Origin: Nocardioides albertanoniae
GTDB taxonomy: Bacteria > Actinomycetota > Actinomycetes > Propionibacteriales > Nocardioidaceae
Reading direction: 5' to 3'
DNA length: 64,000 nt
Assembly (NCBI RefSeq): GCF_006716315.1
Contig: NZ_VFOV01000001.1
Location: 4,666,501 to 4,730,500, forward strand
Shown: positions 16,080 through 49,946 of the stretch, one piece after another
How positions within the stretch are numbered: the first letter of the stretch is position 1
Layout: each line of letters starts with the position of its first letter
Program-made: the position numbers and the translations under genes
Notes under the pieces: model-generated
Told to the model about the DNA's origin: nothing
Seen by the model: the letters and a program-made list of their open reading frames with translations, nothing else
Databases searched by the model: none

Positions 16080-16161
16080 TGGCAGATGAAGGATTCGAAC
16101 CTTCGAAGGCAAAGCCGACGGATTTACAGTCCGCTCCCATTGGCCGCTCGGGCAATCTGCC
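16080..16161 (-). tRNA. tRNA-Tyr (GTA)
   Basis: This 82-nt type II tRNA has acceptor arms GGCAGAT and ATCTGCC with discriminator A, a D-arm CCCGAGCGGCCAATGGG, an anticodon arm CGGACTGTAAATCCG (anticodon GTA), a long variable arm and a T-arm with GGTTCGAATCC. The CCA end is not encoded. Confidence 0.95.
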
Positions 16162-46850: not shown

Positions 46851-47134
46851 TGGCTCTGATCGCAGTCACCTACACCTACAACGACCTTCCCGAGCTGCGC
46901 GCCGCCCACCTGAGCGCACACCGTGAGTTCCTCGGAAGCCTGCCCGGCCTGGTGCTCTCCGGCCCCACCTCCACCGGCTCCGCCCTCCTCCTCTTCGAGG
47001 GCGACGTCGACACAGAATCCATCGAGACCACCCTCGACGACGACCCCTTCCGCGCCGTCGGCCTCATCGACGCACGTCAGGTGTTCGAGTGGACTCCGGT
47101 TCTGGGGAGCTGGAAGGACACGCTGGGGCTCTGA
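46850..47134 (+). CDS. YciI-like dimeric alpha-beta barrel protein
   Basis: This 94-residue protein has a YCII-type fold: AVTYTYNDLPELRAAHLSAH with the conserved His, then SGPTSTGSALLLFEGDVD and a terminal VFEWTPVLG. The function of the family is not known. It is translationally coupled to the MBL-fold gene. Confidence 0.75.
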   Translation: MALIAVTYTYNDLPELRAAHLSAHREFLGSLPGLVLSGPTSTGSALLLFEGDVDTESIETTLDDDPFRAVGLIDARQVFEWTPVLGSWKDTLGL

Positions 47135-47214
47135 GTCTTGGGGCGCGCCTGAGCATTGGGCGTACGTTCGCGCGGCTGCGCACTCGCTGGGTGCTGTTGT
47201 TGCGTGGGACTGTT

Positions 47215-47385
47215 TGCCGCCGACCCGTACGCGGAGGGTGTTTCACGCCGGCACCCGGAGTCAAGGACGGCCTGCGGCCGCCGGCTTCGCCGGTCGCCTT
47301 CGGCGATCCTTGACACCGGGCACCGCCGAGAATTTTGGCTGTCTATCGGGTCGGCGGCAGGGGTCTGGTACGACACATTCGGGTT
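47215..47385 (+). repeat. Left copy of cloverleaf-foldable inverted element
   Basis: This stretch matches the reverse complement of 48885-49052. It can fold into a closing stem (CCCGGAGTCAAGGA with TCCTTGACACCGGG, one mismatch) and three hairpin arms: CGGCC-TGC-GGCCG, CCGGC-TTC-GCCGG and TCGCC-TTC-GGCGA. Beyond the fold, both copies share GGCTG-ATCGGG-CGGCGGCA-type sequence. Confidence 0.7.
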
Positions 47386-47459
47386 GGGTGCCGGGCCGAG
47401 AATGGGGGCAGGTCTGGCTGCCCGCCGAGGCGGTCGCGGGTCGCTGTACTAGACGATGA

Positions 47460-47484
47460 CGCTTTGTGAATCGTTCACAAAGCG
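47460..47484 (-). terminator. Hairpin terminator of the HNH gene
   Basis: Perfect 11-bp arms CGCTTTGTGAA and TTCACAAAGCG with a 3-nt loop, 11 nt past the stop codon. Confidence 0.65.
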
Positions 47485-47494
47485 AATGCCTGGA

Positions 47495-48769
47495 TCAGGG
47501 CCGGCGAGTGAACCGGATCGTCCCGTCGGGCAGACGTTCGTGGGTGAAACCGGGTGCGTGCGCCAACCGATGGTGATGGGGACACAGCAGGACCCCGTCT
47601 TTCAGGTCTGTCTTCCCGCCTAACGACCATGGAGTCAGATGGTGGGCGTCGCACCATTCCGGTGGCATGTCACAACCCTCGGCTTGGCAGCACTTCTGCT
47701 GCAACCGGAGTGCTTTGCGCTGGATCGGCTGGAAGAACCTGCTCGAACGACCCGCATCAAGGACCTGGCCATCGCTGCCGAGCACCCACGGGATGATCGT
47801 GGCGTTGCAGGCAATCTTGCGGGCCTCGGTGGCACTGATCATGGTCCCGTTGGTCTCGTCGAACCCCAAGATGGCGGTGCCAAGCTCTTTGCGGAGGTCA
47901 TCGAGCGAGATCACCACGTTGATGGTCGTCGCGTCACCACCGTGGCGGGGCAGGGCGACGGGGTCGATGGTCTCGATCAGACGGGCGAAGCCTTGGCCCA
48001 CGAGTCGCTCCCACGGCGGGAGCGGTGTGCCCTTCTCCGCCAACTGTTGCTTACGGGGCTGTGCCCAGGCTTCGACGTGGGTCTTGAACCGCATCCCCAT
48101 GGCGACCGGCAACACGCCGTCGAAGCCAACTGTGCCGTCGTGGTTGTCCCAGATCCGTAGCGCGGTCTTCTGCTGAGCCCGTTCTTCCTCAGCCAGGAGG
48201 GCTTTGGCTTCGGCGTCTTCGAACCGGGCTGGGTCGATCTCGACCAGGATCCGCTTCCCAACGACCCGAAGTTCGTTGGCGGTCAGCCGGGTGGCGTAGT
48301 CGACGAGGAGTTTCTCGGCGAGCAACAAGTCTTCTGCGCTCGCGGCAGAGTTCGCCTCGATCGCGTTCAAAGCTTTGGTGATCACTCGGGCTTTGTCGTG
48401 GGAGATCACACCGTCGGCTAGGCCGGTGGCGAGCAGCTCGTGTTTGGCTACGGCGGCTGCGAGCTTGATCTGAGCCCGGGCTGCCGATTTGTCGACAAGG
48501 AGATTTGCCCGGATCCAGGCGGAGGCGTCTCGGTCGCCTGCCTCTTCTGCGATGTCGCCAGCAGTGGCGAGCACCCGCAGCTCGAGCGCAGCCTGCTGCG
48601 CCTTCAAGGTTTCGAGCCGCGCCAAGACGTCCTTCTTCTGGCTGGTTCGCCAGTACGCGGGGTCCATGGTGAGCAGGTCGCCGAGAGCGGTTTCGATGGC
48701 AGCGAGAGCAGCCGAGACGGGGTCGCCGGGGCTGGTGCCCCAGTGGTCGACGTGGTTCTCGACGCTCAT
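47495..48769 (-). CDS. DUF222/HNH endonuclease, 13E12-repeat family
   Basis: This 424-residue protein has the DUF222 region in residues 30-300 (ASAWIRANLLVDKSAARAQI, LAAAVAKHELLATGLADGVI) and a C-terminal HNH domain with two Cys, CCQAEGCDMPPEWCDAHHL and DGVLLCPHHHRLAH. This family includes the mycobacterial REP13E12 proteins, which are repeated in genomes and may be mobile. Base use is less GC-biased at third positions than in neighbouring genes. It is flanked by inverted structured repeats, consistent with a self-contained element. Confidence 0.92.
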   Translation of the reverse strand: MSVENHVDHWGTSPGDPVSAALAAIETALGDLLTMDPAYWRTSQKKDVLARLETLKAQQAALELRVLATAGDIAEEAGDRDASAWIRANLLVDKSAARAQIKLAAAVAKHELLATGLADGVISHDKARVITKALNAIEANSAASAEDLLLAEKLLVDYATRLTANELRVVGKRILVEIDPARFEDAEAKALLAEEERAQQKTALRIWDNHDGTVGFDGVLPVAMGMRFKTHVEAWAQPRKQQLAEKGTPLPPWERLVGQGFARLIETIDPVALPRHGGDATTINVVISLDDLRKELGTAILGFDETNGTMISATEARKIACNATIIPWVLGSDGQVLDAGRSSRFFQPIQRKALRLQQKCCQAEGCDMPPEWCDAHHLTPWSLGGKTDLKDGVLLCPHHHRLAHAPGFTHERLPDGTIRFTRRP

Positions 48770-48809
48770 TGCTGACCCCCTCTCAAGGTGCCCTTCGGGT
48801 ACCCCTGAT

Positions 48810-48832
48810 TTTACTCTCTACCAACGAGTAAA
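48810..48832. promoter_or_regulatory. Inverted repeat upstream of the HNH gene
   Basis: Perfect arms TTTACTC and GAGTAAA with a 9-bp spacer, 41 bp upstream of the HNH start. Candidate promoter-overlapping operator. Confidence 0.4.
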
Positions 48833-48884
48833 GCCAGTCATTTCCGCAGGTCAAACCCTATTTTGCGGCAGCGAACCAACGGTC

Positions 48885-49052
48885 ATACCTCCCGGCCACA
48901 CCGGTGCCGCCGCCCCGATAATCAGCCAAATCTTTTCTCGATCTGGCCCGGAGTCCAGGACCGCGAAGCGGCCGGCGAAGCCGGCGCCCGCAGGGCGTCC
49001 TTGACGCCGGGCCAGATCGAGAAGACCGTGAAGAACGGGTCGGCGGCACGCA
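48885..49052 (-). repeat. Right copy of cloverleaf-foldable inverted element
   Basis: Inverted relative to the left copy. The closing stem is longer here: TCTCGATCTGGCCCGG pairs perfectly with CCGGGCCAGATCGAGA and continues inward with mismatches. The arms are CGCCC-TGC-GGGCG, GCCGGC-TTC-GCCGGC and CCGC-TTC-GCGG. The first arm differs from the left copy by a paired change that keeps base pairing. It ends 15 bp past the lysozyme gene. Confidence 0.72.
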
Positions 49053-49067
49053 TGCCCCCGAAGAACA

Positions 49068-49946
49068 TCAACCTCGCGCGAGCGCCTGAAGCCGGTCGTA
49101 CGCTCCGTTGAACGTGTTCTGATCCAACGGCGAAGACGTGTACTGCCAGAACGTATAGAACCCCCAGCCCGCCGGCAGCGTGCCGGGACCAGACGCATAT
49201 CGCGCGATCCACAATGGGTGAGCGGACGAGAACTGCGAGGTGTTACCCGTGCAGGTCGTCCACCAGTCGGTGGTCGTGTAGATCACCGCGTCGCGGCCGG
49301 TGCGGGAGCGGTAGCGGTCGAGGAAGGCCGCGATCCAGGAGCGCATGGAGGCCTGCGAGAGCCCGTAGCAGGTGCCGCCGTCGTACGGGTTGTACTCGAT
49401 GTCGAGCACCCCGGGAAGGGTCTTCCCGTCGCCCGACCAGCCGCCGCCGTTGTCGACGAAGTAGTCGGCCTGGGCGGCGCCGCCGGAGTCGGACGGGTTG
49501 GCGAAGTGGTAGGCGCCGCGGATGAATCCCTGGTTGTAGGAGCCGTTGTACTGCTGCGGGAAGTAGGTGCTGTTCTTGTAGTAGCTGCCCTCGGTCGCCT
49601 TGACGTAGGCGAACCGCTTGCCCTGGCCCCACCAGTAGGCCCAGTCGACGTTGCCCTGGTGACCGGAGACGTCCATGCCGCTCACGGTGGCCTGCGCGGA
49701 GATGGGCTCCTTGTGGGGGCTGCCGCCCTGGGCGTGGGAGCCCTTGGTCGACCAGCCGACGTAGGCGCCGTCCTTCAGCGTGACACCGTGGCTCTTCGCG
49801 TTGTCGGTGAGATGGCGGTCGTTCTTCTTCGGGGTCGCGGCGGCGGGCTCGGCGCCGGCCGGCGCTGTCGGGGACAAGGAGAGAGCGAGGAGGAGACCGG
49901 CGGCGATCGCGGTCGCTCTGACGGATCTGAGGCGCAAAGGACTCAT
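49068..49946 (-). CDS. Secreted GH25 lysozyme
   Basis: This 292-residue protein has a signal peptide (ATAIAAGLLLALSLSPTAPA). The GH25 muramidase domain in residues 85-290 has GMDVSGHQGNVDWAYWWGQG, FAYVKATEGSYYKNSTYFPQ and LPGVLDIEYN with the catalytic Asp-Glu pair, then LWIARYASG and FYTFWQYTSSP. It cleaves peptidoglycan between MurNAc and GlcNAc. The ATG at 49946 gives a good signal peptide. It is a single gene, next to the structured repeat. Confidence 0.92.
   Translation of the reverse strand: MSPLRLRSVRATAIAAGLLLALSLSPTAPAGAEPAAATPKKNDRHLTDNAKSHGVTLKDGAYVGWSTKGSHAQGGSPHKEPISAQATVSGMDVSGHQGNVDWAYWWGQGKRFAYVKATEGSYYKNSTYFPQQYNGSYNQGFIRGAYHFANPSDSGGAAQADYFVDNGGGWSGDGKTLPGVLDIEYNPYDGGTCYGLSQASMRSWIAAFLDRYRSRTGRDAVIYTTTDWWTTCTGNTSQFSSAHPLWIARYASGPGTLPAGWGFYTFWQYTSSPLDQNTFNGAYDRLQALARG

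Follow-up and report, generated by a model that had tools for sequence, protein, structure and literature searches.

The DNA stretch analyzed here, called the window, comprises 64,000 nucleotides of a Nocardioides genome (G000; 4,970,507 bases, or 4.97 Mb, in a single contig). It harbors a unit some 1.83 kb long, not counting its short outer arms, that sits between the stop codons of two genes ending at 47134 and 49068. The gene ending at 49068 encodes a glycosyl-hydrolase-25 (lysozyme-type) protein. The unit carries an HNH endonuclease gene of the DUF222/13E12 family (47495..48769, minus strand), which encodes a protein of 424 residues. A 21-bp palindrome, CTTTGTGAATCGTTCACAAAG, is located directly beyond the HNH stop codon (47462..47482). 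Four overlapping open reading frames within the element gave no Pfam match. A gene-position scan by codon score was not used, the strands being ambiguous in this high-GC genome.

Both ends of the unit can be drawn as cloverleafs. The upstream end, U, lies on the minus strand at 48906..49047 (142 nt), with the closing stem GCCGCCGACCC/GGGGCGGCGGC, a long inner stem and three hairpins. The downstream end, D, lies on the plus strand at 47216..47358 (143 nt); it is inverted with respect to U and has the closing stem GCCGCCGACCC/GGGTCGGCGGC. The inverted arms at 47254-47297 and 48968-49011 are 91% complementary. The original prediction had placed two such copies face to face around the HNH gene, and they were found there. 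The arm one that it described is also present, as GGCC-TGC-GGCC versus GCCC-TGC-GGGC. Its size of about 170 bp per copy has to be reduced to 142 and 143 nt, measured from closing stem to closing stem.

Next to the D cloverleaf is an outer stretch of 80 nt (47136..47215) without counterpart in the empty sites described below. The inner 25 nt or so of this stretch alone is clearly common to the copies, so the exact end on the D side is not fixed. On the other side, a gap of 20 nt (49048..49067) separates the U cloverleaf from the adjoining stop codon. Several other copies, like the gene-less mini-elements, have outside U an outer arm rich in G and T and about 50 nt long, and CTCCCTGCCGG is present in the U outer arm of several G000 copies. 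Repeats of the CTCCCTGCCGG and GGTCGAGCTTGTCGAGACC types adjoin U ends in G000, G113 and G038 (for example in L042 and L101); they are possibly a preferred target or a separate repeat family.

The window protein scores 19.8 bits against PF01844, slightly under the cut-off of 21.4. At E 1e-3, this model is matched by 10 of 26 aligned members (best 3.3e-11), and the C-terminal motif C..C..AHH..GG.TDL..LLC..H is kept in five aligned copies. PF02720 (DUF222) is matched by 20 of the 26 (best 3.7e-26), and three G000 copies match it at 1.5e-25 to 4.5e-24. The window protein does not reach E 1e-3 against PF02720; it exhibits 68% identity to the protein of L036, itself a copy matching that model. Judged by these matches, the gene belongs to the 13E12/DUF222-HNH repeats. 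The N-terminal 190 residues form a predicted helical domain, for which the nearest listed shapes are Noc/ParB DNA-binding regions, a likeness too weak to build on. Among seven intact genes of the window's subfamily, pairwise dN/dS is 0.07-0.10 with a mean of 0.087, a ratio at which the HNH protein is judged to be under strong purifying selection. The dS among the same seven genes is 0.44-0.84, and the G000 copies are therefore not young. The L036 protein is mosaic-like, its N-terminal half being near the window subfamily and its later part like the other subfamily, which suggests conversion between subfamilies.

A search of the genome for further copies had been set beforehand as a test, and it yielded 16 HNH units and 24 whole cloverleafs, of which 15 are U ends and 9 are D ends. 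The D end gave 32 BLAST matches in G000, mostly facing pairs 1.5-1.8 kb apart, a few of the 32 being the opposite strand of one place. The HNH protein gave 19 matches, merged into 16 copies at 16 different sites, all of which were taken with their flanks and oriented by the gene. The ends of the G000 copies start with GCCGCCGACCC and finish with GGGTCGGCGGC. Both cloverleafs are whole in nine copies (L028-L036) and damaged in seven. The D hairpin is mostly deleted inside its closing stem in three of the damaged copies (L037, L038 and L040), and the 3′ side is lost in four (L039, L041, L042 and L043), L043 also being without the U hairpin. Co-orientation with replication was counted by hand in 22 of 35 copies, taking position 1 as the origin, and constitutes no reportable bias.

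Folded as single-strand DNA, the ends form the closing stem, the long inner stem and three hairpins, each with a loop of 3 nt. The closing stem pairs GCCGCCGACCC with GGG[G/T]CGGCGGC. DNA folding gave z values of -5.6 to -8.65, none of 200 shuffles was equally stable, and three arms appeared in four of four strands. The RNA folds likewise have energies well under those of shuffles (z -4.9 to -8.3); the minimum-energy RNA fold merges arms in two of four strands and has three arms in the other two.

An alignment of 22 ends (A1) was made without L034_D, which has a 7-nt duplication in arm one, and without L030_D, which the pattern missed. The differences among the 22 aligned ends do not break pairing as often as they keep it. 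The stated structure pairs 96.0% of cells in A1 versus 91.1 in shuffles, and 43 cells are changed on both sides versus 12.4 in shuffles, a number reached by none of 500 shuffles. Sliding the partner columns by 1-3 leaves 1-7 both-side-changed cells. Further pair types in A1 number 18, no excess over shuffles (178 of 500). One-sided intermediates of the paired changes are almost never present in A1.

In the same seven copies the per-site divergence of the cloverleafs is 0.097 for U and 0.090 for D, compared with 0.44-0.84 at the synonymous sites of their HNH genes. It is 0.19-0.21 in the spacers, and in the outer arms it ranges from 0.27 over 25 nt at D to 0.88 over 50 nt at U. Of the non-coding parts of the unit, the cloverleaf is by this measure under the strongest constraint. 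Covariation alone is no proof of selection on the fold, because templated correction of imperfect palindromes can give the same outcome. The selection on the folded shape proposed in the original prediction is nevertheless favored by covariation taken together with slow evolution and with strand-specific wobbles.

Read from outside to inside, the three-base loops follow a T-N-C rule with a free middle base, kept in 64 of 66 loops of A1. The rule was examined in 115 distinct cloverleafs from loci of G000, G038, G071, G051, G113, G110, N. turkmenicus and N. luteus, and a strict parser found T-N-C in 237 of 242 three-base loops. This parser resolved 113 of the 115, with 2 unparsed, and called two arms in 75, three in 37 and four in 1; the two-arm calls are probably due to its strict segment cut. 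It also gave 23 loops of four or five bases. In a looser loop count T-N-C was found in 317 of 364, and 35 of the remainder are an A-A-G loop, which may be read as another register of the T-N-C loop. The opposite strand of the T-N-C loop is C(GNA)G. Three-base C(GNA)G loops with a free middle base are extra-stable DNA mini-hairpins (compare the GCGAAGC mini-hairpins).

Wobble-type mismatches concentrate on the GNA strand, as seen when A.C and G.T are counted on the T-N-C strand. The ratio A.C:G.T is 17:4 in A1 and 101:14 in the model alignment. It is 56:3 over 60 distinct inner stems in an alignment that treats both kinds alike, cut to the stem and with 14 unparsable sequences left out. Within the latter count, G-type ends give 43:1 and T-type ends 13:2, and 44 versus 3 distinct sequence contexts lie behind the whole; a sign test on the bias ignores the relatedness of the sequences. 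With a wider cut that extended past the stem, the bias was weaker at 85:24, and the T-type ends alone gave 19:22, no bias. As read from the loops and the inner stems, the fold is strand-specific. Neither a plain duplex palindrome nor a protein reading double-stranded DNA predicts the wobble strand bias. The loop rule and the bias are also regularities that templated palindrome correction does not explain. Strand-biased mutation of an exposed strand could be the source of the bias, and would still mark that strand as exposed. At U as at D, the GNA strand runs with its 3′ end pointing away from the element; the two ends are thus mirror images, not same-strand hairpins.

Copies were searched in relatives with and without an HNH gene, and eight gene-less mini-elements of 449-552 bp, with both cloverleafs facing, were found in G071 and G051. 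No HNH relative was found by tblastn between the cloverleafs at these eight places. By eye, the inner flanks are those of one D end and one U end. Most mini-elements (L147-L154) contain between the cloverleafs several palindromes of about 20 bp of the TGAACGAATTTTCGTTCA kind, with an AATTTT core, and the gene-bearing copies, likewise compared by eye, have a single related palindrome after the HNH stop. Palindromes of this kind are possible protein-binding sites. The L148 mini-element lies directly after a stop codon in G071. This insertion is also found whole or partial in G207, G051, G113, G110 and G038. At this site a 26-nt match is left in G014, the G010 contig stops at the outer arm, and G000 has no match, its flanks being separated by other sequence of about 570 bp. 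The retention of both cloverleafs in HNH-less mini-elements is the strongest single reason why the ends look like the mobile part.

Empty sites were compared among nine species. The window site is vacant in five of them (G014, G010, G071, G051 and G207), where the gap between the convergent genes is 19-27 bp and leaves no room for the element. It is occupied in G000, G113, G038 and G110. The last three carry there an element of the other subfamily in the same orientation, with HNH proteins 58-59% identical to that of the window. A second insertion, next to rpiB (PF02502), sits between two gene starts; it is occupied in six of the nine species (G000, G038, G110, G113, G014 and G010) and vacant in three (G207, G071 and G051). 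The D end at this site is shortened in G113 and G014, and the G010 contig stops inside the element. The flanking genes diverge by 12-14% between G000 and the other eight species, and by 4-13% among these eight. No target-site duplication or exact terminus was found in the compared species, whose intergenic DNA is strongly diverged. Excision scars at the empty rpiB sites were considered and found no support, since the outer-arm likeness score was reached by 60, 49 and 63 of 200 shuffles.

Positional counterparts at the window site, 58-59% identical, are less alike than the G000 sisters of the window's subfamily, which are 79-91% identical. The other site shared with G113, G038 and G110 behaves likewise, L031 having 77% identity to the positional counterpart in G038 and 88-90% to six G000 copies. 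Part of the pattern is thus accounted for by conversion or replacement of old insertions.

HNH relatives are found in 143 of 147 genomes of the genus, and DUF222/13E12 HNH genes in 38 of 198 phylum genomes at E 1e-20. The structural model R1 gave at least 52 matches in G000, at least 72 in G051, at least 60 in G113, at least 47 in G071 and at least 84 in G038, with both strands counted and at most 150 candidates per genome scored. At E 1e-6 with stricter filters, 6 of the 245 genomes in the order had an R1 match: G000 itself and five that belong to other genera. Seven R1 matches in other genera (E 1.5e-13 to 1.5e-9) have no HNH relative within 1.5 kb by tblastn with the window protein. Facing repeats around 20 HNH copies of the genus, about 40-47% identical, did not rise above the control maximum; three of these loci (38, 37 and 37) outscored all but one control (45; 107 pairings). 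At 22 DUF222 loci elsewhere in the phylum that had sufficient flanking sequence, no facing repeats exceeded the 98% control level (58), and four loci (45, 42, 40 and 37) were above the 90% level (36). As the distant HNH copies examined are without such ends, the form with cloverleaf ends looks like a lineage-specific variant within a gene family that is itself widespread.

A set of 20 extra single matches from G038 and G071 was considered as solitary cloverleafs, independent repeats in their own right. This was rejected, as most of them precede an HNH-like frame, a diverged one that starts about 110 nt inside (ATGAACGAGACC or similar, by eye). Some resemble ends with a decayed partner.

The arrangement is best read as a transposon-like element of about 1.83 kb, consisting of an HNH gene and two inverted ends that would work as folded DNA, with the HNH protein acting on them. 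We lean toward this reading, by a small margin of belief. The ends would become single-stranded or extrude from supercoiled DNA, and the 3′-outward strand would fold up as a stem that bears three C(GNA)G mini-hairpins. At each end this GNA-strand fold could be bound by the HNH protein, perhaps via the helical N-terminal domain of the latter, and nicked at or near the base of the cloverleaf, leading to copying or transfer into intergenic sites. The mini-elements would move in trans by using the HNH protein, and gene conversion would then keep the copies alike. That the ends are recognised for movement of the HNH unit, as the original prediction offered, appears well supported by the multiple copies, the empty sites and the two-ended mini-elements lacking the HNH gene. 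Another of its suggestions, structured terminators, is not needed and fails to explain the paired facing ends of the mini-elements. A bolder claim, which we regard as tentative, is that the element represents a new transposon class. In such a class the reading of folded DNA ends would fall to an HNH nuclease in place of a DDE, serine, tyrosine or HUH enzyme, the signal being a C(GNA)G-capped three-hairpin cloverleaf on the 3′-outward strand, and miniatures would be served in trans.

The main rival on mechanism, also named in the original prediction, is that the cloverleafs act as RNA. Outward transcripts would fold and either control the element or serve the HNH protein as a guide or anchor, like the structured RNAs beside other HNH nucleases. 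One-strand wobbles of the G.U type are as compatible with RNA as with single-strand DNA, the ends have strong RNA folding, and at D the folded strand is the HNH mRNA strand. The folded strand at U, however, is antisense to the gene, and the mini-elements keep their ends without any HNH gene. No Rfam family reaches the gathering score at the ends, the sole one in the window being a tRNA at 16080-16161. The C(GNA)G loops are of the kind known from DNA mini-hairpins, and three arms form in four of four DNA folds and two of four RNA folds. We consider action as RNA unlikely.

The units might instead be repeats of old age that for the most part do not move and owe their likeness to gene conversion, with the arm changes arising from templated correction of imperfect palindromes. 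The near absence of one-sided intermediates among the paired changes of A1 agrees with this, as do the copies within a genome being closer than positional counterparts between genomes, and the mosaic look of L036. REP13E12 loci are also described as conversion hotspots in the available text of PMC13061034. What gene conversion leaves unexplained is that different sites are empty in different species, that mini-elements exist, and that the loops obey T-N-C with a 56:3 strand bias of the wobbles. As a full alternative to movement of the element it is improbable. A free-standing homing-type HNH gene, inserted by repair among bystander intergenic repeats such as transcription terminators, would suit the position of the window copy between two stop codons and that of the L148 mini-element after one. 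Such a gene would be expected neither at 16 different sites, instead of one homing site, nor between two gene starts as at rpiB. The two facing ends are retained where the gene is absent, and the mini-elements thus disfavor this origin, to which we give very little credence.

The 13E12 repeat family was first named in Mycobacterium tuberculosis, where a phage attachment site inside the repeat is a feature of REP13E12. Like this family, the present units have a DUF222-HNH gene, are multicopy and show conversion between copies. The available text of PMC13061034 reports such conversion at the M. tuberculosis REP13E12 loci and describes REP13E12 as being without a defined biological function, and that of PMC10589994 classes REP13E12/HNH endonuclease/DUF222 among 'other repetitive elements'. 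In the titles and abstracts of the literature searched, no folded ends, mini-elements or mechanism were found for DUF222-HNH repeats; by those descriptions REP13E12 is unlike the present units, with their paired cloverleaf ends and gene-less mini-elements.

The IS200/IS605 ends act on one strand. In the present element, the loop rule and the wobble bias point to opposite strands as the folded ones at U and D, which would be a difference from IS200/IS605. Folded hairpins at both ends, here from computed folds and covariation, are a feature in common with IS200/IS605 and with REP sequences and their TnpA-REP/RAYT (REPtrons, REPINs). As far as the available text of PMC6006769, PMC8266576 and PMC3116915 goes, palindromic folded ends accompany a single nuclease gene in the REP/RAYT and IS200/IS605 systems, and gene-less repeats are thought to be mobilised in trans. 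Unlike in these systems, the enzyme here is an HNH protein matching only HNH/DUF222 models, with no HUH/Y1 transposase, and the ends are about 143 nt.

MITEs and insertion sequences with terminal inverted repeats likewise have inverted ends, and occur as gene-bearing and short gene-less copies. They differ from the present element, which has no recognised transposase, whose inverted ends are themselves folded, and for which no target-site duplication was detected among the diverged species compared. Free-standing HNH homing endonuclease genes are similar in that an HNH nuclease lies in an intergenic insertion absent from relatives; the present element differs by its many sites per genome and its dedicated structured ends. 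With a DUF222-HNH lineage that has clear, structured, conserved ends and gene-less derivatives, the nature of these repeats becomes a bench question. If the proposed reading is true, HNH nucleases would have to be counted among the few chemistries by which DNA is moved, and recognition signals would gain a new kind in the strand-specific three-hairpin end.

Several other arrangements were observed. In N. luteus JCM 3358 (L202:1563-2250), three tandem cloverleafs in the same orientation lie upstream of one HNH gene. G059 carries nine HNH copies of about 45% identity (L276-L284), with 87-90% DNA likeness to the query copy. These nine have a different structured 5′ region of about 200 nt in common and no downstream end, and their homology ends near the stop codon.

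A larger element of G038, in units of 3.2 kb, was considered and proved to be a form of the same element whose HNH gene is interrupted by an IS110-family transposase gene (PF01548, PF02371). Since the 3.2 kb unit is the same element with an insertion, the IS110-family insertion does not account for the ends. In seven HNH copies of G038 (L101-L107) the IS110-family unit occupies one and the same position within the HNH motif (CDAH). The unit is 100% identical in all seven over the compared part, and the 5′ parts of the host copies differ by 6-15%. Insertion into the catalytic codons of the nuclease has apparently been repeated and targeted, which would make the IS110-family unit a parasite of a parasite.
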